Shown here in pieces: positions 6,540 to 55,716 of a DNA stretch of 57,514 nucleotides (positions within the stretch are counted from its first letter, which is position 1; each line of letters starts with the position of its first letter). The stretch spans positions 13,769 to 71,282 of the forward strand of contig JAGHZW010000169.1 of assembly GCA_017745195.1 (NCBI GenBank). The letters run 5' to 3'. The stretch is from Pseudoxanthomonas sp. Lineage in GTDB: Bacteria > Pseudomonadota > Gammaproteobacteria > Xanthomonadales > Xanthomonadaceae. Position numbers and translations under genes: made by a program. The notes under the pieces are model-generated. The model was not told the DNA's origin and did not search any database. It saw only the letters and a program-made list of their open reading frames with translations.

Positions 6540-7727
6540 CTACGAGGAGGCGGTGCCGGTCGTGCCGGGGACCACGGACACCGCGACGACGCCGCCATGC
6601 CAGCGCGGCAGTTCGGCCACCAGGCAGGTGCCGCGATCCCGGAGCGGACCGACGTGCAGGCTGCCGCCCAGTGCCTGCAGCCGCTCGCGCATGCCGTCCA
6701 GGCCGTTGCCCGGGCGGATCGCGCCACCGCGGCCGTCGTCTTCCACCTGCAGCCGCCACTGCTGCGCGACCTCGCACAGCGAGACCCGCACGTTGCGCGC
6801 ATGCGCGTGGCGGTGGATGTTGGTCACCGCTTCGCGCAGGCACAGGGCCAGCACCGTTTCCTGCTCCGGCGCCAGCGCCAGTTCGCCGCGTTCGACCTGC
6901 AGCGAGGTGCCCTCGCCTTCCAGCAGCACCTTCGCCGCCGCCAGTTCCGCGGCCAGGCCGACCGCGCGGATCCCGGTCACCGCCCGGCGCACCTGGCCCA
7001 GCGCCTCGCGCGCGACCTGGCCCAGCTCGCCGATCTCGCGCTGCGCGGCGTGCGGATCGCGCTCGATCAGCTTGCCGGCCAGGTCGGCCTTGAGCGCGAC
7101 CAGCGACAGGGTGTGGCCGAGCAGGTCGTGCAGGTCGCGGCCGATGCGTTCGCGCTCGGCGGTGGCGGCCAGGCGCCGCACCTCGTCCTGCGACAGCCGC
7201 AGGGCCGCATCCTTCTGTTCGGCCAGGCGCTGGGCATGGACCAGCAGTCCGGTGACCACCGTGGTCAGCGGCATCCAGAGCATCGCCGACCACGGGTAGC
7301 CGATCGCACGCGCCAGGCCGATGAACAGCGCATTGAGCGCCAACAGCGTGAGGGCGTATGCCCATTCGCGACGCCAGCGTCCCGAACCGAGGAACACGCA
7401 ACCGAACACGAAATAGCTCATGCCAGACGGGTACCACCGCAGCAGCGCCAGGCTCAGCCCGCACATGCCCAGCGCGTACAGCGGCACTTGTCGCCGCGGC
7501 TGCAGCAGCGCGGCCGCGTACAGGGCGAGGAACAAGGGATAGGACAGCAGGGTCAGCGCCCACCAGCGCGCGTCGTAACCCTGCGGGGTGAACACCGGGA
7601 CGATGAACACCCACACCGTCCACAGCACGTGGATCGCCTCGCTCCACGCCGGCCGACCACGCGCCAGCGCGCGGGCGACCAGCGAATCGGGCGCCGGCTG
7701 CGGCCAGGCAGGCAGGGATCGGGACAT
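6540..7727 (-). CDS. desK: DesK-like sensor histidine kinase
   Basis: A 395-residue inner-membrane histidine kinase. About five transmembrane segments span residues 33-163, with very short loops and no periplasmic sensor domain, as in DesK-type intramembrane sensors. A HisKA_3 dimerization domain follows, with His200 in ERIGRDLHDLLGHTLSL, then a HATPase_c domain with the N box REAVTNIHRHAHA and the G box EDDGRGG..GNGLDGMRERL. The partner is the DesR-like regulator 189 bp downstream. The ABC ATPase and permease genes lie immediately upstream (21-bp gap), so the pair probably senses membrane state or a compound handled by that transporter. The signal is unknown. Confidence 0.9.
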   Translation of the reverse strand: MSRSLPAWPQPAPDSLVARALARGRPAWSEAIHVLWTVWVFIVPVFTPQGYDARWWALTLLSYPLFLALYAAALLQPRRQVPLYALGMCGLSLALLRWYPSGMSYFVFGCVFLGSGRWRREWAYALTLLALNALFIGLARAIGYPWSAMLWMPLTTVVTGLLVHAQRLAEQKDAALRLSQDEVRRLAATAERERIGRDLHDLLGHTLSLVALKADLAGKLIERDPHAAQREIGELGQVAREALGQVRRAVTGIRAVGLAAELAAAKVLLEGEGTSLQVERGELALAPEQETVLALCLREAVTNIHRHAHARNVRVSLCEVAQQWRLQVEDDGRGGAIRPGNGLDGMRERLQALGGSLHVGPLRDRGTCLVAELPRWHGGVVAVSVVPGTTGTASS

Positions 7728-7748
7728 CGCGGACTCCGGGCGGTTCGA

Positions 7749-8522
7749 TCAGGCGCGGTCCAGCCGGCGCCGCGCCAGCAGGAAGAACACGGCCGCCACC
7801 GCCAGCAGCACGCCCACGTGCAGCCACGGCACGACCCCATCGGCGAAGCCCACCTGCAGCTGCGCGATCCGGGCCAGATGGTACGCCGGCCACAGCGGCG
7901 CGATCGACTTCAGCGTGGCCGGCAGCATCGACAGCGGGATGAACAGCCCCGACAGGAACGCCATCGGCAGGTACACCAGGTTGATCAGCGCCGGCGCGCC
8001 GCGGCCACCGACCAGGGTGCCCAGCCACAGGCCCAGCGCAGCGAACGGCAGCACGCCGAGCAGGCAGGTCGCGGACAGGCCCAGCCACTGCACCGGCGCC
8101 AGGCGCACGACGGCCACGGTCGCGCCGAGCAGCGCCAGCAGCGCGACCACGATCGCGGCGAACAGCAGCGCCATCGCCACCTTGGCCAGCAGGTAGGCGC
8201 CCGGCGGCATCGGCTGGGCGCGCTTGAGCAGCAGCAGGCCCTGTTCGCGGTCCAGGGCCACGGTCACGCCGAAGCCGAACAGGGCCACGCCCATGACTCC
8301 GAACACGCTGTAGCCGGCGAGCAGGAAGCGTGCGGCCTCCGGCGAGCGGTTGCCGCCGAACACCTCGCCGAACAGCAGGTAGAACAGCGGCGGGAACAAC
8401 AGCACCGGCAGCGCGAACGAGGGCGAGCGCAACAGGCGCAGGAATTCGTAGCGGGCCTCCTGCAGGTAGGCGTTCCAGCGCGACGCGATGGCGCCATCGG
8501 CGGCGGTGGTGGTTGCGTCCAT
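7749..8522 (-). CDS. ABC-2 type transporter permease
   Basis: A 257-residue inner-membrane permease of the ABC-2 family with six predicted transmembrane segments: about 37-52, 69-88, 113-137, 144-170, 180-202 and 234-251. The region LKRAQPMPPGAYLLAK between TM2 and TM3 is the usual coupling segment. Its ATG shares one base with the stop of the ATPase gene (TGATG), giving tight translational coupling and a presumed 1:1 complex. ATPase, permease, DesK and DesR in this order form a common export module in Gram-negatives; cargo may be a lipid, peptide or toxic compound and is not predictable here. Confidence 0.88.
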   Translation of the reverse strand: MDATTTAADGAIASRWNAYLQEARYEFLRLLRSPSFALPVLLFPPLFYLLFGEVFGGNRSPEAARFLLAGYSVFGVMGVALFGFGVTVALDREQGLLLLKRAQPMPPGAYLLAKVAMALLFAAIVVALLALLGATVAVVRLAPVQWLGLSATCLLGVLPFAALGLWLGTLVGGRGAPALINLVYLPMAFLSGLFIPLSMLPATLKSIAPLWPAYHLARIAQLQVGFADGVVPWLHVGVLLAVAAVFFLLARRRLDRA

Positions 8523-43971: not shown

Positions 43972-45948
43972 TTATTGCGCCGGCGCCCCGCCCAGGTGCC
44001 TGCCGAGGAAGGCGAGCAGCCGGGTGTAGTACTCGCGGCGGTGCTCTTCGGTATAGAAGCCGTGGCCTTCGTTGGGGAAGTACAGCGTCTCCACCGGCAC
44101 GCCGGCCTTTTTTAAAGCCTTTTCCATGCGCTTGCTGTGCTCGATCGGCGCGCGCTCGTCCTTCCCGCCGCCGGCCAGGAACACCGGCACCTTGATCCGC
44201 TCGGCCAGGTTGACCGGTGAGCGCGCGCCCAGCGCGTTGCGCTCGCCCATCCATTCCAGTGCCCAGGTCCGCCCGGAGCGGCTGGCGGACGCATCCAGGT
44301 GCATCATCGGCAGGTCGTAGACGCCGACGTAGCCGACCGCGCACCGGTAGAGATCCGGCTCCTTGGCCACGCCCATCAGCGCCGCGTAGCCACCGTAGCT
44401 GGCGCCGTAGATGCAGATCTTCGAAGCGTCGGCCACGCCTTCGCGCACCGCCCAGCGGGTGGCGTCGGTCAGGTCGTCCTGCATGGCCCCACCCCACTGC
44501 TGGTTGCCGGCCTGCAGGTACTGGCGCCCGTAGTTGCCCGACCCGCGGTAGTTCACCCGCAGCACCGCATAACCGGCGGCGGCCAGGATCTGCGCGTCGT
44601 CGTCGAAGTCCCAGCTGTCGAAGACACCGAATGGCCCGCCGTGCGGCAGCAGCACCATCGGTCGCGGGCCCGCGGCCGCGCCGCGCGGCTCGGTGAGGTA
44701 GCCGTGCAGGGTCATGCCGTCGCGCGCCTTGAAGGTCACATAGCGCGAGGCCGGCACTGCGGCCGGATCGAACCATTCGCGCCGGCTGAACACCCGGTCC
44801 GCATGCTTCGTCCTGGTGTCGAACAGGAAGTAGTCGCCGTTGTTGCGGTCGCTCCACGCGTACAGCAGCACTTCGGAGCCATCGGCGGTGGACGAGGTCA
44901 TCCACACCGGATCACCCCCGAACGCCTGCTCCAGGCTGCGGTAGAAGCGCGATGTCTTCTGGCCCTCGTCGAAGAACCGGTTGCGCACCTTGTCGGTCAT
45001 GTACGACGCGCCGATCGGCGTGTGCCCGTCGAGGTCGTACAGGATCCGGTACGGATCGGCGACGGCATCGCGCATGACCTCGCGGTACTCGCCGGTGGCG
45101 GGGTTCCAGGTCGCGATCGCGTCCGGGCCCTCGTCGCGCTCGACCTGCAGGTAGGCCAGGCTGCCATCGGCGGTGAAGCCCAGTGGATATTCGCGGTGGC
45201 CGCTGGCGTCCTCGTCGTTGACCAGCCGCCACTCCTCGCCGCTGCGCTCGCGGTAATACAGCTTGGTGACGTTGTCGGCGCCGGCACCGTAGGCGAAGCG
45301 CACCTCGGCGCGTGCGTCGGCCAGGAAGCGGGCACGGCGCACCGGCGTGGTGGCCAGCGGCGTGCGCTTGCGGTTGTAGATGTTGAGCTTCTCGATCCTG
45401 GTGTACGGCTCGCTGCTGGTCACCGGAACGGAATAGACCAGCACGTTGCTCGGGTCGCCCGGTATCGTGTCGAGCATGTACACGGCACTGTCCATGTCGA
45501 CCCGCTGGGTGTTGATGACGGCGCCGGGATCGCTGTTGACCCCGTACGGACTGGCCAGCAGCTTGCGATTGGTGCCATCGGCATTGACCGCATACAGTTC
45601 ACCGAGCGCCAAGGGCGTGTCGCGCGATCCGTATTTCTCGGCCATCGACACGACCAGGCGCTCGTTGTTGGCCCACCAGAAATCGTCGACCACCGAATCG
45701 GCGCGACCCATGATCTTGGCCGTGGGAACGCCGTCGGCCCGACGCACGACCGCCAGTACGGTGCGGTCTTCCAGCGGCACGGTCACCGCGTAGTACGCGC
45801 CGTCGGGCGAGATCTTCAACCGCTCGTAGCGGTCCTGCTTCAGGTACAGCTCCAGGTCGACCTTGCCCGGCGCGGCGGCGCCGGCCGGCGCCGCCCACGA
45901 CAACGCGACGGCCAGCAGCACGCCGACCGGCTTCATGCAACGCAGCAT
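43972..45948 (-). CDS. exported S9 family (prolyl oligopeptidase-type) peptidase
   Basis: A 658-residue secreted serine peptidase of the S9C type. The signal peptide is about residues 1-26 (hydrophobic core VGVLLAVALSWAAPAG). A seven-blade propeller-like region spans about 40-385, and the alpha/beta-hydrolase domain runs from about 390 to the end, with Ser in GASYGGYAAL, Asp in GGGKDERAP and His in PNEGHGFYTEEH. It probably trims peptides in the periplasm. Nested ATGs (45954, 45948, 45936) make the start uncertain; the middle one has AGGGG at a good distance. The 3' region has an unusual TTA AAA AAG run. Confidence 0.9.
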   Translation of the reverse strand: MLRCMKPVGVLLAVALSWAAPAGAAAPGKVDLELYLKQDRYERLKISPDGAYYAVTVPLEDRTVLAVVRRADGVPTAKIMGRADSVVDDFWWANNERLVVSMAEKYGSRDTPLALGELYAVNADGTNRKLLASPYGVNSDPGAVINTQRVDMDSAVYMLDTIPGDPSNVLVYSVPVTSSEPYTRIEKLNIYNRKRTPLATTPVRRARFLADARAEVRFAYGAGADNVTKLYYRERSGEEWRLVNDEDASGHREYPLGFTADGSLAYLQVERDEGPDAIATWNPATGEYREVMRDAVADPYRILYDLDGHTPIGASYMTDKVRNRFFDEGQKTSRFYRSLEQAFGGDPVWMTSSTADGSEVLLYAWSDRNNGDYFLFDTRTKHADRVFSRREWFDPAAVPASRYVTFKARDGMTLHGYLTEPRGAAAGPRPMVLLPHGGPFGVFDSWDFDDDAQILAAAGYAVLRVNYRGSGNYGRQYLQAGNQQWGGAMQDDLTDATRWAVREGVADASKICIYGASYGGYAALMGVAKEPDLYRCAVGYVGVYDLPMMHLDASASRSGRTWALEWMGERNALGARSPVNLAERIKVPVFLAGGGKDERAPIEHSKRMEKALKKAGVPVETLYFPNEGHGFYTEEHRREYYTRLLAFLGRHLGGAPAQ

Positions 45949-46052
45949 CCCCATCCCCTGTTCTTTCTTTCCCCATGGCCATCGTGGCAAAGCGTCGCCA
46001 TAGCTGTCCATCCAAACCCGTCACGTCTGCCGCAACGGATGCGCCGGTCGGT

Positions 46053-46061
46053 TACGATGCC
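46053..46061 (+). promoter_or_regulatory. candidate -10 region of the methyltransferase gene
   Basis: TACGAT followed by GCC, about 30 bases before the GTG start at 46088, repeats the TAnnnT(T)GCC pattern seen elsewhere in the window. Confidence 0.35.
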
Positions 46062-46087
46062 TGCCCCCGCCGTCTTCCGCGCATGCC

Positions 46088-46933
46088 GTGTCCCGCTATT
46101 CCGGCCCCCTGCTGACCCGCGACACAGGCGACGCGCTGCTCGCCGCGCATCGCCGCGGCGACGCCACCTGGACCGGCTCGCTGGACCTGGGCCGGAGCAC
46201 CGATACCGCCACGCTCGAGGCCGATCGCTGGCACTGGCGCGGCATGGCCTGTCCGTGGCCGGGCAAGCTCAAGGAGCGCACCGTCTATTTCCTCGACAGC
46301 GATGGAGCGTGGACGCCGGTGTCGCGCTACGCCGGTTCGCTGATCAAGCTGGTGCCCAGCGAATGGGGCGTGCCGACCTTCGAGATCGACGGCATCAAGA
46401 TGCTGCCGACCTCGAAGGAGTCGCCGCTCGACGACGCGCGGCGCAAGGTCGCCCTGGTCGAGCCGCGCGGCAAGGTGGTGCTCGATACCTGCGGCGGGCT
46501 GGGCTACTTCGCCGCCTGCTGCCTGGAAGCGGGCGTGGCCCGCATCCATTCGTTCGAGAAGAACGACAGCGTGCTGTGGCTGCGCGCGCTCAACCCGTGG
46601 TCGCCGGATCCCGAGGCGCCGGAAAGCGGCAGCCGACTGCAGCTGGTCCACGCCGATGTCACCGCGGTGATCGCGGCCGTGGCCGATGCCTCGGTCGATG
46701 CCGTGCTCCACGATCCGCCCCGCTTCGGCATCGCCGGCGAGCTGTATTCGGCCGCGTTCTACGCACAGCTGGCGCGGATCCTGCGCCGTGGTGGCCGCCT
46801 GTTCCACTACACCGGCACGCCGAACCGGCTCACCAGCGGCCGCGACGTGCCGCGCGAGGTGGCCACGCGACTCGAGCAGGCCGGGTTCAAGGCGCAGCTG
46901 GCGCTGGACGGTGTACTCGCCATCCGCCGCTGA
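46088..46933 (+). CDS. archaeal-type class I SAM-dependent methyltransferase (COG2521-like)
   Basis: A 281-residue methyltransferase. The N-terminal third is not assigned; motif I is VVLDTCGGLGYFAACCL, followed by the acidic FEKND, ALNPWSPD, and the catalytic-type motif HDPPRFGIAGELYSAAFY, then GGRLFHYTGTP. The order Asn-Pro-Trp-Ser then HDPPRF..GELYS..FY is that of the COG2521 'predicted archaeal methyltransferase' group. An N-methyl transfer to DNA, RNA or protein is suggested by the Asp-Pro-Pro-Arg motif. The start is a GTG. It is convergent with ybhN and is not clearly in an operon. Target unknown. Confidence 0.78.
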   Translation: MSRYSGPLLTRDTGDALLAAHRRGDATWTGSLDLGRSTDTATLEADRWHWRGMACPWPGKLKERTVYFLDSDGAWTPVSRYAGSLIKLVPSEWGVPTFEIDGIKMLPTSKESPLDDARRKVALVEPRGKVVLDTCGGLGYFAACCLEAGVARIHSFEKNDSVLWLRALNPWSPDPEAPESGSRLQLVHADVTAVIAAVADASVDAVLHDPPRFGIAGELYSAAFYAQLARILRRGGRLFHYTGTPNRLTSGRDVPREVATRLEQAGFKAQLALDGVLAIRR

Positions 46934-47884
46934 CTAGCCGGCGGCGTCGCTGCCCGGCAGGCGCACACGGCGCGATTCCAGCCACAGATAGACCAGTCCG
47001 GCTACGCCCAGCGGCAGCAGGTAGTAGAGGCCGCGGAAGGCCAGCAGTGCGGCCAGCACCGCCGGCTCGCCGAGCTGCGCGCCCAGGGTCAGCAGGAACA
47101 TCGTTTCCCACGCGCCCAGTCCGGCCGGCGTATGCAGCAGCACGCCGGCCACCGCCGACACCAGCACGATCGCCAGCACGCGCGGATAGGCCACGCCCGC
47201 CGGCAGCAGCAGGAACAGCAGCGCTCCCAGCACGGCCCAGTTGAGGCACGACAGCAGCAGCTGCAGCAGGGCCATGCGCAGCGACGGCACGACGAACGCC
47301 TGGCCGCGCAGGTGCAGGTGCCGCCCGCCATGGCGCGCGCACAGCGCCAGGTAGGCCAGGACCATCAGCAGCATCACCGCGCCGGGCAGGCGCCAGGCGA
47401 TGCCCTCGCCGGCGCCCGGTGGAAGCGGCAGCGGCGCCACCAGCAGGACCACGCCGGTCAGCGCGGCGTAGCCCAGCCAGTTGGTCAGCACGGTGAACCC
47501 GGCGATGCGCGCGACCCGCCCCGCGGAAAGGCCGGCGCGACTGTAAAGCCGCAGGCGCATGCCGCCGCTGCCCAGCAGCGCGCCGAGGTTGAGCGCCACC
47601 GCGTAGCAGACGAAGGCGATCGCGGCGGTGCGCCCGCGCGGCAAGCGGTGGCCGACCTGGCGACGCGCCACCAGTTCGTAGGCGCAGTACAGCAGGTAGC
47701 TGAGCAGGACCATGCCCAGGCAGGCGGCCAGCCGCGCCGGCCGGTAGCTACGCAGCGCCGCAGCCACCGCCTGCCAATCGGTGGCCCGCGCGTAACGCAC
47801 GCCGAACACCAGCACCACGACCAGGATCGCCAGGACCAGCACCCTGACCAGGCGGGCGCGATGCCCCGGCGACCCGGCAATCAC
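46934..47884 (-). CDS. ybhN: YbhN-like UPF0104 membrane protein
   Basis: A 316-residue inner-membrane protein with about eight helices, of the UPF0104/lysylphosphatidylglycerol synthase-flippase-like fold. GSGGMRLRLYSRAGLSAGRVARI matches the core motif of the family, and HTPAGLGAWETMFL is a second one. E. coli YbhN is linked to lipid handling. Its GTG start overlaps the clsB stop by 4 bp (GTGA, 47881-47884). It is the last of a ybhP-clsB-ybhN unit with the same order as in E. coli, supporting a membrane-lipid role. Confidence 0.88.
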   Translation of the reverse strand: MIAGSPGHRARLVRVLVLAILVVVLVFGVRYARATDWQAVAAALRSYRPARLAACLGMVLLSYLLYCAYELVARRQVGHRLPRGRTAAIAFVCYAVALNLGALLGSGGMRLRLYSRAGLSAGRVARIAGFTVLTNWLGYAALTGVVLLVAPLPLPPGAGEGIAWRLPGAVMLLMVLAYLALCARHGGRHLHLRGQAFVVPSLRMALLQLLLSCLNWAVLGALLFLLLPAGVAYPRVLAIVLVSAVAGVLLHTPAGLGAWETMFLLTLGAQLGEPAVLAALLAFRGLYYLLPLGVAGLVYLWLESRRVRLPGSDAAG

Positions 47885-49143
47885 GCGTCGCCGCTCCCGC
47901 CGGCGGCACGGGCGTCCCGATGCCCGTCCCCATCCCGCGCAGGATCACCGGCATCGCGCACGATCGCCGCCGGCGTCTCCACCGCGTTGCCGGCCGGCAA
48001 CGCGACCACCCGCGGCTGGTGCGCCGGCAGCAGGCCGGCCCAGTCCGGGAACCTGCGCTGCAGGTGGTAGAGCAGCCACGCCGGCAGCCAGCGTGGCTGC
48101 GCCGGCACCGGCACGCAGCGGTCGACCGGATCGCAGTCCTCGCGCCACAGCCGCTGCATCCGCGCGTGCAGCTGGCGGTTGAAGTCGCGGTCGCGCACGA
48201 ACAGGTTGGCCTCGAGGTTCAGCGACAGGCTCAACGGATCCAGGTTGCTCGATCCTACCGTCGCCCACTGCCCGTCCACCAGCGCGACCTTGCCGTGGAA
48301 CGGACGTGCACGGTACTCGTGGATTTCGATCCCGTCGCCGATCAGCTCCCGGTACAGCGAACGGGCCGCCTTCATCGCCACCGGCATGTCCGGCTCGCCC
48401 TGCAGGATCAGGCGCACGACCACCCCGCGCCGCGCGGCGTGGCGCAGTTCGCGCAGGAAGCCGCGACCGGGGAAGAAATAGGCGTTGGCGATCACGATCT
48501 CCGAGCGCGCCGCGCGGATCGCCTCGCGGTAGGCGCGCTCGATGCCGGTGCTGTTGCGGCGGTTGTCGCGCAGGACGAAGGCCGCCTCGGCGGTGCCGCA
48601 CGCGGGCAGCGCCGCACCACGCCTGGCGCCGCGGACGAAGCCGTGGATGTCCGCCACCACCGGCCCTTCCACCTCCACCGCGTAGTCCTGCTTGGCCTCA
48701 GGCCCGAACGTGCGCAGGTGGTCGGCCGAATAGTTGATGCCGCCGACGAAGGCGCGCGTCCCGTCGATCACCAGCAGCTTGCGATGCATCCGCCGGAACA
48801 CGTTCAGGCGCACGCCGAGCAGGGTCGGCTTGGGATCGAACACGCGGAAATCGACCCCGGCGCCGGCCAGCGGTTCGAGGAATTCCTTCGAGAACCCCGG
48901 CGAGCCGTAGCCGTCCACCAGCACCTGCACCCGCACGCCGCGCCGGGCCGCATCGAGCAGGCGCGCGTGCAGCTGCCAGCCGACCTCGTCCTCGAACAGG
49001 ATGAAGGTCTCCAGTTGCAGTTCATGCCGGGCCGCATCGATGGCCGCGAACACGCGCCGGTAGAAGGCCTCGCCGTTCTCGATCAGGTCCACGCGGTTGC
49101 CCGCGGTCCAGCGCGCGCCGGATCCGGCATCGGCCGGACTCAT
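47881..49143 (-). CDS. clsB: cardiolipin synthase B-like phospholipase D family protein
   Basis: A 420-residue PLD-superfamily enzyme with two HKD motifs: HRKLLVIDGTRAFVGGIN and HGKVALVDGQWATVGSSN. ClsB transfers a phosphatidyl group between phospholipids to make cardiolipin and can make phosphatidylglycerol. It has no N-terminal membrane helices, unlike ClsA, which fits the ClsB class. Its ATG overlaps the ybhP stop (ATGA, 49140-49143) and its stop overlaps the ybhN start. The unusual C-terminal 60 residues, Ala/Asp/Arg-rich, look poorly conserved. Confidence 0.92.
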   Translation of the reverse strand: MSPADAGSGARWTAGNRVDLIENGEAFYRRVFAAIDAARHELQLETFILFEDEVGWQLHARLLDAARRGVRVQVLVDGYGSPGFSKEFLEPLAGAGVDFRVFDPKPTLLGVRLNVFRRMHRKLLVIDGTRAFVGGINYSADHLRTFGPEAKQDYAVEVEGPVVADIHGFVRGARRGAALPACGTAEAAFVLRDNRRNSTGIERAYREAIRAARSEIVIANAYFFPGRGFLRELRHAARRGVVVRLILQGEPDMPVAMKAARSLYRELIGDGIEIHEYRARPFHGKVALVDGQWATVGSSNLDPLSLSLNLEANLFVRDRDFNRQLHARMQRLWREDCDPVDRCVPVPAQPRWLPAWLLYHLQRRFPDWAGLLPAHQPRVVALPAGNAVETPAAIVRDAGDPARDGDGHRDARAAGGSGDA

Positions 49144-50012
49144 GCGCCGGCCCCGGGCAGGGACAGGCGCGCGAACAGCACCGCGTGGTCGGACAGCCGC
49201 GACCACGGCGCAGCGCTGTGCACGGTGGCCTCGACGATCGCCAGGCCGCGCACGTAGATCCGGTCCAGCGGCAGCAGTGGCCAGTGCACCGGGAAGCTGC
49301 GCGCGAGCCGGCCGCGGCTGGCCTCGAACACCTCGGTGAGGCCGCAGCGCCGCAGGCGGGCATGGCCCGCGCCGCGCCAGTCGTTGAAATCGCCGGCGAC
49401 GATCAGCGGTTCGCCAGCGGGAATGGCCGCGTCCAGGTGCGCGCACAGCAGGTCGAGCTGGCGCCGGCGATGCGCCTCGCGCAGGCCCAGGTGCACGCAC
49501 ACCGCGTGCAGGCACTGCTCCTGGCCGGGGACGTGCAGCCGGCAATGCAGCAGGCCGCGGTTCTCGTGCCCGGCCACCGACACGTCGTGGTTGTCATGGC
49601 TGGCGATCGGCAGCATCGACAGCAGCGCGTTGCCGTGGTGCCCATCCGGATAGACCGCGTTGCGGCCATAGGCGAACTGCGGCCACAGGCTGTCGGCGAG
49701 GAACTCGTAATGCGGCGCATGCGGCCAGGCCGCGTGGCGGCGTGCGTGGCCGCTGTGCGCGCCCAGCACTTCCTGCAGGAACACGATGTCCGCGCCGACG
49801 CCGCGGATCGCCTCGCGCAGCTGCGGCAGCACGAAGCGCCGCTGCAACAGATCGAAGCCCTTGTGGATGTTGGCCGTGAGCACGGCCAGCCCGGCGCCGG
49901 CCCGCGCCAGCGCGGGAACCGCTGCTTCCACCGCCTGGGCGACTACCGCCGGCGCTGATGGCGCGTCGCAGGACGACGGAGGCGTATCTCGGTGCATGGT
50001 CGGCGATGGCAT
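49140..50012 (-). CDS. ybhP: YbhP-like endonuclease/exonuclease/phosphatase family protein
   Basis: A 290-residue EEP-fold protein, first of the ybhP-clsB-ybhN unit. Catalytic motifs: LTANIHKGFD (Asn), VFLQEV (Glu), GDFNDWRG (Asp and Asn) and LSDHAVLFARL (Asp-His). EEP enzymes cleave phosphodiesters of nucleic acids or lipids; a phospholipid or nucleic-acid substrate is possible. The start is uncertain: ATGs at 50039, 50012 and 49997 precede the conserved region by 40-80 residues, and an N-terminal variable stretch is present. No signal peptide is clear. Confidence 0.85.
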   Translation of the reverse strand: MPSPTMHRDTPPSSCDAPSAPAVVAQAVEAAVPALARAGAGLAVLTANIHKGFDLLQRRFVLPQLREAIRGVGADIVFLQEVLGAHSGHARRHAAWPHAPHYEFLADSLWPQFAYGRNAVYPDGHHGNALLSMLPIASHDNHDVSVAGHENRGLLHCRLHVPGQEQCLHAVCVHLGLREAHRRRQLDLLCAHLDAAIPAGEPLIVAGDFNDWRGAGHARLRRCGLTEVFEASRGRLARSFPVHWPLLPLDRIYVRGLAIVEATVHSAAPWSRLSDHAVLFARLSLPGAGA

Positions 50013-50225
50013 GGCATCCGCACGTCGGGACCGGGCCATCGTCGGCAGGCCACCGCGAAGCACGGATGAAAGCGCCGTGCGGCGCGGCCGTGGACAAGGC
50101 CACTCGGGCGCGGCCGCCGAACGCCGCCACCGGCCCGGGGCATGCAAGGAAACGCAGGCAAACGGACGCCGCCGCGACGACGAGGGGCGGCGGCATCCGG
50201 CTCCTGCCCTGCGCCAGGGCGGTGC

Positions 50226-51681: not shown

Positions 51682-51899
51682 GGCGTGCCGCCTGCGCTGG
51701 CGCGGTGGTAGGCCACCAGCGCGTTGGCATGGCCGTGGCCGAGGCCGTGTTCGCGCTTGAGCACCGCGACCTGCTGCATGTGGGCGAGCCCGGCCAGCCC
51801 ATCGAGCAGGCCGAGCCAGTGCACGACCGGCTGGCCGTAGGTCTTCTCGATCGACCGGAAATACGAGGCCGGTCCCTTGACGGGGGTGGCGCTGTCCAT
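51678..51899 (-). CDS. DUF4287 domain protein
   Basis: A 73-residue cytosolic protein. The region ASYFRSIEKTYGQPVVHWLG and the helix LKREHGLGHGHANALVAYH fit the DUF4287 family, found alone or fused to DUF5655 in many bacteria, with unknown function. It overlaps the GST start by 4 bp. A 99-base gap separates it from the 117-residue gene upstream. The start ATG is the only suitable one. Confidence 0.8.
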   Translation of the reverse strand: MDSATPVKGPASYFRSIEKTYGQPVVHWLGLLDGLAGLAHMQQVAVLKREHGLGHGHANALVAYHRASAGGTP

Positions 51900-51998
51900 G
51901 GCGTGCTCCGCTGGCAGTGGGTGTCGCGGGTACGACGGCCGGGCAGGACCCGGTTCGACATCCCCCGCGAAGCGGTCGCGCCGCGCCGCGGCCCTGGC

Positions 51999-52352
51999 TC
52001 AGTCGACCTCGATGTTGGCGAAGCGGTCGCGTGCGTCCTTGACCGTGCTGCGCCTGCCCGGGCCGCTGCGCGGTGCCGGCTTCTCCTTCGGCGCCACGAG
52101 CTGCTTCGGCACCGGTCCGGGCGTCTTCCTGGGCTTGCGCTTGTGCTTGACCGCGACCTCGATGTCCAGTCCGAGCGTCATCGCGTCCCAGGCGCCGTTG
52201 TGGTCGCCGAGGTTGACCAGCACGCGGGCGACCTTCTTCGGCGGCGGCGGCTGCACGACGACGGTGCTGTAGATCGGCTTGAGATCGACCTCGATGACGA
52301 TGCCGTCGACCAGTTCGAGGGAGACGGTCTTCTTCAGAACCTGCGTTGCCAT
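51999..52352 (-). CDS. small protein paralogous to the 86-residue protein, with basic tail
   Basis: A 117-residue protein with no family I recognise. Its first 60 residues resemble the next upstream small protein: a beta-rich start (TVSLELVDGIVIEVDL), a VVVQPPPP hinge, then ARVLVNLGDHNGAWDAM. The second half is a Lys/Pro/Arg-rich low-complexity tail ending in an acidic FANIEVD. The tail suggests binding to nucleic acid or acidic partners, which is inference. AAGGAGCAAGGAAC precedes the ATG. It is 75 bases downstream of the 86-residue gene and likely in the same transcript. Confidence 0.6.
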   Translation of the reverse strand: MATQVLKKTVSLELVDGIVIEVDLKPIYSTVVVQPPPPKKVARVLVNLGDHNGAWDAMTLGLDIEVAVKHKRKPRKTPGPVPKQLVAPKEKPAPRSGPGRRSTVKDARDRFANIEVD

Positions 52353-52427
52353 GTTCCTTGCTCCTTGCGTCCTCAGGGGATAACCCGCAATGCCGCCCTC
52401 CGCCGCGGCGGCTTCATCCGTTGCACA

Positions 52428-52688
52428 TCAGGGACCGACCGCCGGGGGAATGCGCGGGGTGTCGATGGCGGCTATTTCCACCACCGCCGCAAGCGCCCGG
52501 TTCGGATCGCCGAGGTCCAGGATCTCGGCTGCGAGCAGCTTCGGCCGCGGGGGTGGCGGCGGCACGATGACGCCGGTGGACACGAGCCAGATGGCGAATT
52601 CGATGGACACGGTGTCGTCGATCTTCAGGACGACGCGCTGTTCGGTGATGGGACTGAAACCGGCACGAAGGAACTGCAGCATGTTCAT
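52428..52688 (-). CDS. small protein coupled to the TPR regulator
   Basis: An 86-residue protein with no recognised family. It shows a beta-rich start (RVVLKIDDTVSIEFAIWLV), a five-Pro hinge (VIVPPPPPRP) and LAAEILDLGDPNRALAAVV. The hinge and the LGDxNxA motif are shared with the 117-residue protein downstream, so the two are paralogues. Its ATG overlaps the stop of the winged-helix/TPR gene by 4 bp (ATGA, 52685-52688), meaning translation is coupled to the regulator. No signal peptide or TM segment. Function unknown. Confidence 0.65.
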   Translation of the reverse strand: MNMLQFLRAGFSPITEQRVVLKIDDTVSIEFAIWLVSTGVIVPPPPPRPKLLAAEILDLGDPNRALAAVVEIAAIDTPRIPPAVGP

Positions 52689-54919
52689 GCTCCTGGTGGA
52701 TGCGCCGCGGATGCAGGTGACTCCGCCGGGGCCGGCGCGACAGTCCCCGGGGATTCCACCAGGCCGGCCCGCCTGAACACGGCATGGGTGTCGATGCGCG
52801 AGGCCGGTATGCCCGTGTCCCGCGCGCTCTCCAGTGCGGCACGCGCCTGATCGAGCCGGCCGAGGCCCGCATACGTCAGCGCGTTGTAGAGGGCGACTTC
52901 GCCGGGTTCGATATCCAGCGCCCGTGCCTGGCCTGCCAGGCGCAATGCCGTGTCGGCATCGCCCAGTTGCGCCCGGTACCAGCCCAGCGCGGCCTGTGCC
53001 TTGGCATCGCCCGGATTGGCGTCGAGATAGCGCTGGGCCAGGTCGGCCGCCTGCGCGTAGGCCTGCCGTGCCTGTGCCGCCGTGCCTGGATCGGCGTCTA
53101 GCGCATCGCCAAGATTGCCCGGATAGGAGAAGTCCGTGGGATTGAGCCTGGCGGCGCGCCGGTAGTACCCAGCCGCGCCGGCGTAGTCGCCCTTCTGGTA
53201 GCGCAGGGTGCCCAGGTTGGACAGCACGCCCTCGCGCGGCTCGATCGCCAGCGAGCGCCGCATCGCGGCTTCGGCGGCCTCGTTGTCGCCAGCCGCCAGC
53301 AGCAGGCCACCATAGGTGTTCCAGTAGTCGGCATCGTCCGGACGCAGCGAGACCGCGGTGCGGTAGGAATCGATGGCGTCGCGGTAGTGTCCGAGCCGGA
53401 ACTGCTGGTAGCCCAGGTCCGCATGCACCCTGGCGTTGCCGGGGCTGGCCTTCAGCGCCTCGTGGAAGTCGTTCATCGCCTCGGTTTCCCGGCCCTTGTT
53501 CACGTGCAGCCAGGCGCGCCCGTCCAGCGCCTCCCAGCGGGTCACCGGATCGTTGATGGCCAGGTCGTAGTAGTACAGCGCCTGTTTTTCGTTGTCCTGC
53601 ACGCGGTACAGGTCCCCCAGCGCCACGTTCACGTCACCCAGGGTGCGATCCATGTTCTGCGCGCGCAGGCAGGCCAGTCGTGCCTTGTCGAAGGCGTCGG
53701 CGTTGTGGTTGGCCAGGAAGTTCCAGAGCTCCATGCGGCACAGGGCCGCCTGCGCACGGGCGAAGCCGGCATCGGTGGACAGTGCGCTGCGGAAATGCCT
53801 GGCCGCCTCTTCGCGTCCGCTCGCCCCCTCCGAATGGAGCATCTCGCCCACGCCGAGCAGATAGCTGCCGAACGCCGACGCGTCGCGGGTCGGCATCAGG
53901 CGCCGTTGCAGCGCTTCCCGTTCCTCGGGCAACACGTCGAGCAGCGCGTCGGTCACCGCATTGGCGATGTCGGTCTGGGTGTCGAAGACCGCGTCCGCGT
54001 CGCCCTCGTAGTTGCGCGACCACAGCGTGAAGCCGGTCGTCGCATCGGACAGCCGCGCGCTGATGCGCAGGCGCCCGCCGTCGCGGCGCACGCTGGCATC
54101 GAGCACGGTGGCCACGCCCAGCAGCCGGCCCAGCGCCTGCACGCCCTCGCCGCGGTCGATCGCCTCCGGCGGCCGCCAGGCGGCGACCTTCAACCCCGGC
54201 ACGCCGGCCAGTGCATTGAGCATTTCCACCGACAGGCCTTCGGCGAAGTAGCGGTCCTCGCGCACGTCGCTGAGCGTGGTGAACGGCAGCACCGCGATGG
54301 ACGCCTCCAGCGGCGTGGCCGACGGCGGACGATCCCGCCAGGCCCAGGCGATCGCCGCCAGCAGCACGGCGAACACGAGCCCGCTGGCCCAGGCGCGGCG
54401 CGAATGGCGCGGCGCCGCCTCTTGCGACGGCGTGGACGGTGCTGGCGGCGAAGCTGGCAATGCTGCAACGGCAACCGGTGCGGCCGCATCCTCCGCCGGC
54501 GCCGCGGGTTCCTCCACGGGCGCCGGTGCGGCAGGCACCGCCGCGGGCGCGGCGACGGCCGGCCGCGGCTCGGCCTCCAGCGTTCCGATGAAGCAGTAGC
54601 CCAGCGCGTGCCGGGTCTGGATGTAGCGCGGATGGTGCGAATCGTCGTCCAGCGCGGCACGCAGCTGGGCGATGACCCGGGTCAGCACGCCGGGCGTGAC
54701 GTGGCGGTGGCCCCAGACCAGGTCGAGCAGCGCGTCGCGCCCGAGCAGCTCGCCGGGCCGCTGCAACAGGGCCAGCAGAACGGCGAACGCTTTCGGCTCC
54801 AGCGCCTGCGCCTGGCCGTCACGGACCAGGGTACGGGCAGCGGCATCCACCACGATCCCGTCGAAGCGGTAGCGCGCGGTGCCATCGCCGCCGGCGGGCG
54901 TGGACTCGTCCGGCCTCAT
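52685..54919 (-). CDS. CadC-like winged-helix, TolB-like, TPR membrane regulator
   Basis: A 744-residue protein. The N-terminal OmpR/CadC-type winged helix (about 18-110) has PKAFAVLLALLQRPGELLGRD and the recognition helix region VTPGVLTRVIAQLRAALDDD. An Ala/Pro-rich linker follows, then one TM (about 176-192), a TolB-like domain starting IAVLPFTTLSDVREDRYFAEG (about 205-340) and about eight to ten TPR repeats to the C-terminus. This resembles membrane-bound transcription activators such as CadC, with the C-terminal sensor outside. The ATG at 54919 has GAGGAAG 7 bases upstream. It is divergent from the DUF1232 gene and coupled to the 86-residue gene. Confidence 0.85.
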   Translation of the reverse strand: MRPDESTPAGGDGTARYRFDGIVVDAAARTLVRDGQAQALEPKAFAVLLALLQRPGELLGRDALLDLVWGHRHVTPGVLTRVIAQLRAALDDDSHHPRYIQTRHALGYCFIGTLEAEPRPAVAAPAAVPAAPAPVEEPAAPAEDAAAPVAVAALPASPPAPSTPSQEAAPRHSRRAWASGLVFAVLLAAIAWAWRDRPPSATPLEASIAVLPFTTLSDVREDRYFAEGLSVEMLNALAGVPGLKVAAWRPPEAIDRGEGVQALGRLLGVATVLDASVRRDGGRLRISARLSDATTGFTLWSRNYEGDADAVFDTQTDIANAVTDALLDVLPEEREALQRRLMPTRDASAFGSYLLGVGEMLHSEGASGREEAARHFRSALSTDAGFARAQAALCRMELWNFLANHNADAFDKARLACLRAQNMDRTLGDVNVALGDLYRVQDNEKQALYYYDLAINDPVTRWEALDGRAWLHVNKGRETEAMNDFHEALKASPGNARVHADLGYQQFRLGHYRDAIDSYRTAVSLRPDDADYWNTYGGLLLAAGDNEAAEAAMRRSLAIEPREGVLSNLGTLRYQKGDYAGAAGYYRRAARLNPTDFSYPGNLGDALDADPGTAAQARQAYAQAADLAQRYLDANPGDAKAQAALGWYRAQLGDADTALRLAGQARALDIEPGEVALYNALTYAGLGRLDQARAALESARDTGIPASRIDTHAVFRRAGLVESPGTVAPAPAESPASAAHPPGA

Positions 54920-55059
54920 CGCCACTTCCTCATGTTTGCCTCACGACCTCGGCGAACACGCATGGAACGGTCGTACCCGCCTCATGACCCGCCTGCGCAT
55001 GCCGGGGATGCTGACCCGGCGCCGGCACTGCCGCGCCTACCTACCCTGGAGAGACGCAA

Positions 55060-55716
55060 ATGGACGCTGTGATTACAACCCTGTCCCTGGTCCAGCCGCT
55101 GCCTGCGATCCTGGACGCCACCCCGCCCTTCAGCCTGCTGCACCGTCGCAAGCACATCGGCGGTTACCGCCCTGCGTCGGCCGACCTGGACCGCTTCAAC
55201 CAGCTGCTGGCCCGGCTGGGCCGCCGCCGTCCGCCGCTGGATGTCGACCGGCTGGCCACCGCCGCCCGGCAGCTGGCCGACAGCGCGGACGACGATGCCC
55301 CCGGATGTATCGCCCAACGGATTGCGTGGCTCGAATCGGTCGTGGCGATGACCGGCGACCGCGACTGGGAGGCTGCCAACGAAGTGGCCGGCTATGCCCG
55401 GATGGTGGCCGACTACGCCAACGACACCCACGACCTGATCCCGGACTGGCTGCCGCGGATCGGCCGGCTGGACGATGCCATCGTCATGGACACCGCCTGG
55501 CCGGTGCTGCGCCACGAGCTGTCCTGCTACCGGGATTTCCGTCGCCTGCGCACGGTGGAAGCGGACCTGCGCGGCTGCGCGCCGGAGCAGCTGCCGTTCG
55601 ACCGCCATGCATGGGAAGCGGCGCGCGAGGTGGAAGCCGCACTGATCGCGCATCGGCGCCGGGTGCGGGAATCCAGCTATGCGCCGGCGCCGTCGGCGAT
55701 GTTCCGGATCCACTGA
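55060..55716 (+). CDS. DUF1232/YkvA-like domain protein
   Basis: A 218-residue soluble protein. The segment DLIPDWLPRIGRLDDAIVMD matches the DUF1232 (YkvA) core DLIPDFIPVLGYLDDAIV. The rest, a 130-residue N-terminal helical region and a 60-residue C-terminal region, is not recognised. In this family the core usually forms membrane-associated hairpins; no strong TM segment is visible here. GGAGAGACGCAA precedes the ATG. It shares a 140-base spacer with the divergent winged-helix/TPR gene, which may control it. A strong terminator follows. Confidence 0.7.
   Translation: MDAVITTLSLVQPLPAILDATPPFSLLHRRKHIGGYRPASADLDRFNQLLARLGRRRPPLDVDRLATAARQLADSADDDAPGCIAQRIAWLESVVAMTGDRDWEAANEVAGYARMVADYANDTHDLIPDWLPRIGRLDDAIVMDTAWPVLRHELSCYRDFRRLRTVEADLRGCAPEQLPFDRHAWEAAREVEAALIAHRRRVRESSYAPAPSAMFRIH

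Follow-up and report, generated by a model that had tools for sequence, protein, structure and literature searches.

The two small open reading frames that follow a CadC-like membrane regulator gene in Pseudoxanthomonas sp. (contig JAGHZW010000169.1) are paralogous copies of one protein, which is linked to the regulator gene and conserves a hydrophobic strand with a P-x-P motif. We consider it somewhat probable that this small, fast-evolving protein is a dedicated partner of the regulator, binding it, most likely on the cytoplasmic side, and tuning its activity. The window (the whole stretch of 57,514 nucleotides that was analysed) carries the three genes on its minus strand, namely the regulator (52685..54925, 746 aa), copy 1 (52428..52688, 86 aa) and copy 2 (51999..52352, 117 aa), the last of which consists of a beta domain and a basic tail. 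Copy 1 overlaps the regulator stop by an ATGA (bases 52685-52688), and copy 2 starts 75 nt further on, so that the coordinates confirm both the coupling of the first frame to the regulator and the spacing of the second that an earlier note on this DNA had described. Searches with both small proteins gave no Pfam or NCBIfam match at E<=1, and the 24 aligned members yielded stray matches only (best E 0.037 in Pfam and 0.016 in NCBIfam, one member each), none of them above a curated cut-off, in agreement with the statement of that note that the proteins belong to no known family. No publication on the locus was found in the open-licence PMC literature, and the family, matched by neither a database family nor a paper in that literature, is undescribed.

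The regulator starts with an OmpR-type winged helix (residues 38-112, Pfam Trans_reg_C, 2.4e-16) followed by a Pro/Ala-rich linker, shows by hydropathy a single hydrophobic stretch at about residues 177-198 with basic residues ahead, and carries TPRs in its C-terminal part (Pfam). From this pattern one transmembrane stretch is predicted, and the TPR part should be periplasmic. The protein is CadC-like in layout, and the CadC model (NCBIfam equivalog NF007540) covers its residues 25-349 with 61 bits, a weak match far under the cut-off of 400.

The common descent of the two copies is supported by 34% identity over 56 residues (BLASTP) and by a Smith-Waterman score of 74, the maximum of 2000 shuffles being 60; with the proline runs masked, the score is 69 and the shuffle maximum 48 (n=2000). 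The paralogy that had been proposed therefore stands, since the alignment beats shuffled controls with and without the prolines. In addition, a profile built without the window sequences placed copy 2 first (E 2.3e-22) and copy 1 second (E 6.4e-12) among 727 window ORFs. The motif L-x-x-LGD-x-N-x-A, which the earlier note had seen in both proteins, is indeed present in both, with the correction that in copy 1 it starts with I (I-L-D-LGD-P-N-R-A); it is no family motif, because LGD-x-N-x-A is confined to the window pair (2/24 aligned relatives). As judged from the alignment of close relatives (A7), the conserved part of the family is a hydrophobic strand followed by P-x-P, the latter invariant in 24/24 rows, and the window versions are VIVPPPPPRPK in copy 1 (residues 40-50; 52539..52571, -) and VVVQPPPPKK in copy 2 (residues 31-40; 52233..52262, -). 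The sequences diverge strongly, with identities to the 117-aa protein of 14-39% in 20/23 rows, and dN/dS values of 0.16-0.71 in six pairs (own Nei-Gojobori count) suggest that the proteins are constrained but fast-evolving.

An AlphaFold2 model of the 117-aa protein, made from 24 sequences, has low confidence (pLDDT 64, pTM 0.33) and shows strands at residues 8-13, 18-27, 43-45 and 61-70 and no helix. The proline run had been regarded as a hinge. A hinge between two folded halves is not supported by this low-confidence model, in which strands two and three of a single small beta domain flank the P-x-P, and the run belongs to the best conserved part of the protein. The fold search with the model was uninformative because of its poor quality, Foldseek returning no match at E<=0.001 and values of E >=1.5 throughout, with MHC and antibody chains in the lead.

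Within Pseudoxanthomonas, the regulator (E<=1e-60) and the small protein (E<=0.01) occur in the same 10 of 17 genomes and neither occurs in the remaining 7, according to a search with a profile of 13 rows in which all first-look candidates were scored; training rows came from 9/10 of the positive genomes, G011 and the 7 absences having provided none. Two copies are present in four of these ten genomes (the window, strain NC8, P. kaohsiungensis and P. daejeonensis) and a single one in six, so the pair is not an essential unit, and the idea that the two proteins form a heteromer or serve as alternative partners of the regulator is not supported in that form. The small-protein tree has too little resolution for dating the duplication. 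In NC8 (L025 / L173), a one-contig genome of about 57% completeness, the regulator is split over several frames, likely through sequencing indels, and in P. kaohsiungensis the expected ATG of copy 2 is absent (L117:7529-7735, +), where the start would be GTG or another codon.

When the 117-aa protein was searched against 100 genomes, nine other genomes matched at E<=1.4e-4; eight of these matches follow an orthologue of the regulator as its first or second downstream gene, and the ninth, in G011, hits an ORF that has only the tail and lies elsewhere in the genome. Profile searches of the genus and of 345 family genomes produced 15 distinct matches, of which 13 are training rows and two, in G011 and G367, are new and both lie behind the regulator. 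The tie of the family to the regulator is supported, and no homologue without it was seen above threshold in the genus and family profile searches, with the proviso that absences are weaker where fewer candidates were scored per genome (<=17 in the family search, <=14 in the order search). Matches at E 0.0016 to 1 in the 100-genome search were set aside as chance, 81/100 genomes having a match at E<=1; among them, that of G032 (E 0.0016, residues 38-84) falls in a 346-codon open frame that is not behind this regulator. Order-wide profile matches at E 0.0018-0.0075 in four genomes were likewise treated as chance, given 398 genomes. A genome scan with exact peptide patterns of the 117-aa protein alone gave no matches because the family is too divergent.

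The position behind the regulator gene, here called the slot, was then read across genera in loci that the regulator alignment retrieved from named genomes. Among the best 80 of 176 loci, 63 were taken as orthologues (L117-L178, L182) and 17 as paralogues (29-40% identity), and with one orthologous locus running off its contig 62 are readable; the slot counts use these named loci only, which overlap with the genomes labelled G. Proteins of the window family (type A) fill 26 slots, an unrelated type B fills another 26, and 10 slots are other, unclear or disordered (L122, L123, L126, L127, L137, L149, L167, L171, L176 and L177), those of L149 and L176 still holding a V/I-rich stretch and then prolines and that of L137 having no clear gene. 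A type A or type B protein therefore follows 52/62 readable orthologous regulators, whereas the 17 loci with paralogous regulators gave no A7, A9 or type B match at E<=0.05. The 26 type A slots comprise 16 of the A7 kind (close relatives) and 10 of the A9 kind, a distant branch from Rhodanobacteraceae and MAGs. Members of both kinds were first assigned by eye, and of the 26 type B members, 19 belong to the type B alignment, whose profile contributed the other 7. A7 and A9 are of common descent, with a profile-profile score of 33.6 against 13.5 for the best of 150 column shuffles. With an A9-only profile, nine ORFs of the A7 kind are recovered (E 2.4e-4 to 0.024), including the window 86-aa protein (0.017); at E<=0.05 this profile misses the window 117-aa protein and matches no non-slot ORF. 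Common descent of A7 and type B was considered as well and is unsupported (17.1 against 18.7 for the best of 150 shuffles).

In leave-one-out searches, where all rows of the same locus were removed and related species were kept, the slot ORF came first, or second only to a tandem copy, in 24/24, 10/10 and 19/19 cases (53/53). A regular expression for the motif fits 27/43 slot proteins (shuffled mean 2.4, maximum 8, n=1000), a count that is a description and not a test because the expression was written after viewing the sequences. Slot type follows the regulator tree: for 63 regulators (the 62 and that of the window) it changes 11 times, against a mean of 31.8 for shuffled types, and 0/200 shuffles were as low. 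The gaps in front of the first A7- or A9-kind ORFs span -4 to 69 nt, L172 apart. At this last locus (L172:5123-7435, +; Arenimonas daejeonensis), the C-terminal part of the regulator and the small protein share one frame with no stop between them, a fusion that is unproven because this record also breaks the reading frame of the regulator further upstream. A second tandem type A pair lies behind a regulator outside the genus (L159:7213-7425 and 7426-7815, +), and in the slot ORFs of L124, L125 and L164 one small protein carries two copies of a T-P-V-V motif with prolines behind it.

On which side of the membrane these proteins act can be approached through their hydrophobicity. By hydropathy, no N-terminal signal or helix was found in the first 35 residues of the type A proteins or in an in-frame upstream extension (0/24 and 0/10). 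A 17-residue stretch with a mean above 1.6 occurs anywhere in 4/24 type A members, the highest being that of copy 1 (residues 26-42; 52563-52613, -), with a mean of 1.82 over 17 and 1.46 over 19 residues, and a topology predictor could take it for a membrane helix. NC8 copy 1 has an internal hydrophobic stretch as well (17-residue mean 1.64), and the matching position of copy 2 scores 1.33 and is modelled as a strand. The stretches in the two first copies speak against a purely cytoplasmic location. Binding of the small proteins to the TPR domain of the regulator appears doubtful, because that domain is expected in the periplasm and the small proteins showed no export signal; the borderline stretch of copy 1 gives it some chance, and were this stretch to span the membrane as a helix, it would bring the proline motif of copy 1 close to the TPRs, immediately outside the membrane.

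Type B proteins, found in Lysobacter, Stenotrophomonas and relatives, are cupredoxin-like and often lipoprotein-like, the fold being predicted for one member. The model of this protein (L145:7307-7777, +; pLDDT 82, pTM 0.73) has a cupredoxin fold, amicyanin leading the entries listed by VIA-align (Z 11.1, rmsd 2.5, 101 residues aligned). Among the type B members, 13/19 have a hydrophobic N terminus and 14/19 a lipobox-like site, and a D-P near the hydrophobic C terminus is invariant in 19/19 rows. Foldseek listed the SO1698 protein at rank 8 for type B (E 1.0e-3), with D116A and P117A mutants in its PDB titles; in VIA-align, amicyanin leads and SO1698 is not among the 50 entries listed. The C terminus of another type B protein (L128:7255-7758, +), GGVIIRPTGPRPFG, resembles the type A motif, the two families having no sequence relation.

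Copy 2 differs from copy 1 by its basic, proline-rich tail (residues 69-117; 52002..52148, -), a module with profile matches in other genomes of the genus, and its last 51 residues include 15 K/R and 5 D/E. The earlier note had described the protein as having gained a basic tail, and both the tail and its gain are borne out, with the difference that it forms a module which has free-standing relatives in two further genomes: it is fused likewise in NC8, and basic ORFs with the same end stand alone in G011 and P. kaohsiungensis. The full tail model matches in only these 4/340 genomes, and 32 further matches (E<=1e-5) are restricted to its last 19 positions. Genes for AAA+ proteins match the tail profile with E values down to 2.0e-9, and in all six matches inspected (five from the tail profile, one from the 117-aa search) the matching segment lies directly behind the DEAD (Walker B) box. 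Its counterpart in copy 2 is an 18-residue segment, GRRSTVKDARDRFANIEV (52005..52058, -), which is identical to that of the G054 AAA+ protein at 14/18 positions. The AAA+ gene of G011 encodes winged-helix-variant and AAA domains and lies among contractile-injection genes (sheath, tube and hub) within 19 kb. The window's own genome (87.6% complete, all candidates scored) showed no AAA+ segment, nor, in a less complete search, did NC8 and P. kaohsiungensis. Four small ORFs of the genus end in this segment, within <=2 residues of the stop (window 52005-52058, -; L173:7865-7918, +; L033:7277-7330, +; L117:3926-3979, +). The tail could be a capture with a function or a relic, and the end point common to the four ORFs speaks for a function. 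A search of the open-licence PMC literature found no publication on mimicry of AAA+ peptides by small proteins.

Upstream, the regulator is separated by 134 bp (54926..55059) from a divergent DUF1232-like gene (55060..55716, +; Pfam DUF1232 with 23.3 bits, cut-off 23), which is a candidate target of the regulator and which tblastn finds on the other strand in 60/63 orthologous and 0/17 paralogous loci. The intergenic region has a mean column identity of 74% in nine genus sequences, and GGTCATGAGG, present in 9/9 of them, is a candidate operator; between 51600 and 55800, nothing resembling a sigma-70 promoter was found. Elsewhere in the window, endonuclease/exonuclease/phosphatase, PLD-like and lysylphosphatidylglycerol-synthase-TM-like genes stand in a row (46934-50099, -), perhaps as a phospholipid operon, and two long frames of the opposite strand (44299-47244, +, 981 aa, and 51705-52850, +, 381 aa) are likely products of high GC content and not genes.

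That the family was found only behind one kind of regulator suggests a dedicated partner, and this reading fits because there is a partner gene for each orthologous regulator, starts are close or overlapping, no homologue was seen elsewhere, divergence is fast and the type of partner tracks the regulator tree. The partner would be made in step with the regulator and would bind it, most likely on the cytoplasmic side at the winged helix or the Pro/Ala linker, contact being made through the hydrophobic strand with its P-x-P. It would then tune the activity of the regulator on its own divergent promoter, shared with the DUF1232-like gene. In other genera, the unrelated and often exported cupredoxin-like protein in the slot would act on the periplasmic face, although a role shared by both types sits oddly with the frequent export of type B and its seeming lack in type A. 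The 10 of 62 slots with other or unclear ORFs and the poor fold model also weigh against the reading. A specialised form of the partner, marked by the basic tail, would be present as copy 2 in this species and in strain NC8.

The main rival, to which we give a smaller yet real share of credence, is that the small proteins are the output of an autoregulated operon and have a role unrelated to the regulator, for instance together with the DUF1232-like protein. The operon position would fit this reading equally well, linkage as such would fit it too, the DUF1232-like gene is an equally conserved neighbour (60/63 loci), and unrelated families, one of them often exported, can fill the slot; however, starts overlap or are closely spaced in many loci, the small protein co-occurs with the regulator within the genus, slot type tracks the regulator tree and no homologue was seen above threshold away from the regulator, all of which speaks against the rival without being decisive. 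A more daring combination, in which the slot of one regulator is filled by unrelated partners on opposite sides of the membrane and copy 2 of this species acquired at its C terminus an 18-residue peptide of a contractile-injection AAA+ ATPase as a mimic that couples the regulator to the AAA+ machine or its client, seems to us improbable. We give still less credit to copy 2 as an adaptor or decoy whose tail binds the AAA+ machine or a client, the regulator merely controlling it. The match of the last 18 residues before the final D to the segment behind Walker B would agree with such a mimic, as would the end point shared with NC8 and the two stand-alone basic ORFs, but the full tail model matches so few genomes, copy 1 and the other family members have no tail, and the genomes of the window, NC8 and P. 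kaohsiungensis showed no AAA+ segment in the searches described above. Finally, that the small ORFs are mere open frames of a GC-rich strand is scarcely credible: spurious long frames do arise in the high-GC DNA of this region, such as the 381-aa frame on the other strand, but profiles recover the small ORFs across genera, their position is conserved and dN/dS is below 1 in 6/6 pairs.

To our knowledge, few membrane-bound transcription regulators have a known small partner. If the small proteins are indeed dedicated partners, a fast-evolving protein tied to its regulator and replaced elsewhere by an unrelated family would form a natural series, with 62 readable named loci, for studying the control of such regulators, the side of the membrane from which it is exerted and the residues that make contact. 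With its C-terminal AAA+ segment, copy 2 offers a concrete and cheap test of peptide mimicry.

Several known systems resemble parts of this locus. The AAA+ ATPase of contractile injection systems, which we take to be of the Pvc15 kind, shares with the 117-aa protein the segment behind Walker B, matched by 18 C-terminal residues, whereas an ATPase domain is absent from the 117-aa protein. PMC11495950 mentions Pvc15 in its accessible part. The type B proteins occupy the same slot behind orthologues of the same regulator, yet they have no sequence relation to the window family and a hydrophobic N terminus in 13/19 members. With the CadC-type one-component regulators, whose layout is taken from the accessible part of PMC9214523, the regulator has in common the winged helix, the membrane helix and the C-terminal TPR part, and it differs in its score (61 bits against the cut-off of 400) and in the small partner gene that follows it. 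The accessible part of PMC10269533, on membrane-bound regulators, contains none of the words accessory, tetratricopeptide, TPR, Xanthomonad, adjacent and Lysobacter.

Of the known kinds, the co-component system comes closest, with VtrA/VtrC, ToxR/ToxS and TcpP/TcpH as examples (PMC9214523, as far as its accessible part goes). According to that part of the source, the partners are anchored or exported and modelled as eight-strand lipocalin-like barrels, most of the regulators have a C-terminal cysteine, and partner frames were extended upstream there too. As in those systems, a winged-helix regulator with one membrane helix (a topology inferred here) and a C-terminal sensor part is followed by a small adjacent or overlapping gene of the same strand, with an ATGA here and an overlap or short gap in relatives, and the partner evolves fast and has no similarity to known domains. 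Unlike theirs, the type A partner has, as far as hydropathy shows, neither a membrane helix nor a signal peptide at its N terminus, with the internal hydrophobic stretch of copy 1 as a reservation; its domain has only about 70 residues as against eight-strand barrels, and the regulator, with its long TPR part, lacks cysteines beyond residue 419. Although the locus is not classed as a member of this kind, because the likeness observed lies in layout and not in an exported or anchored partner or a lipocalin-like fold, by analogy it may work like one.
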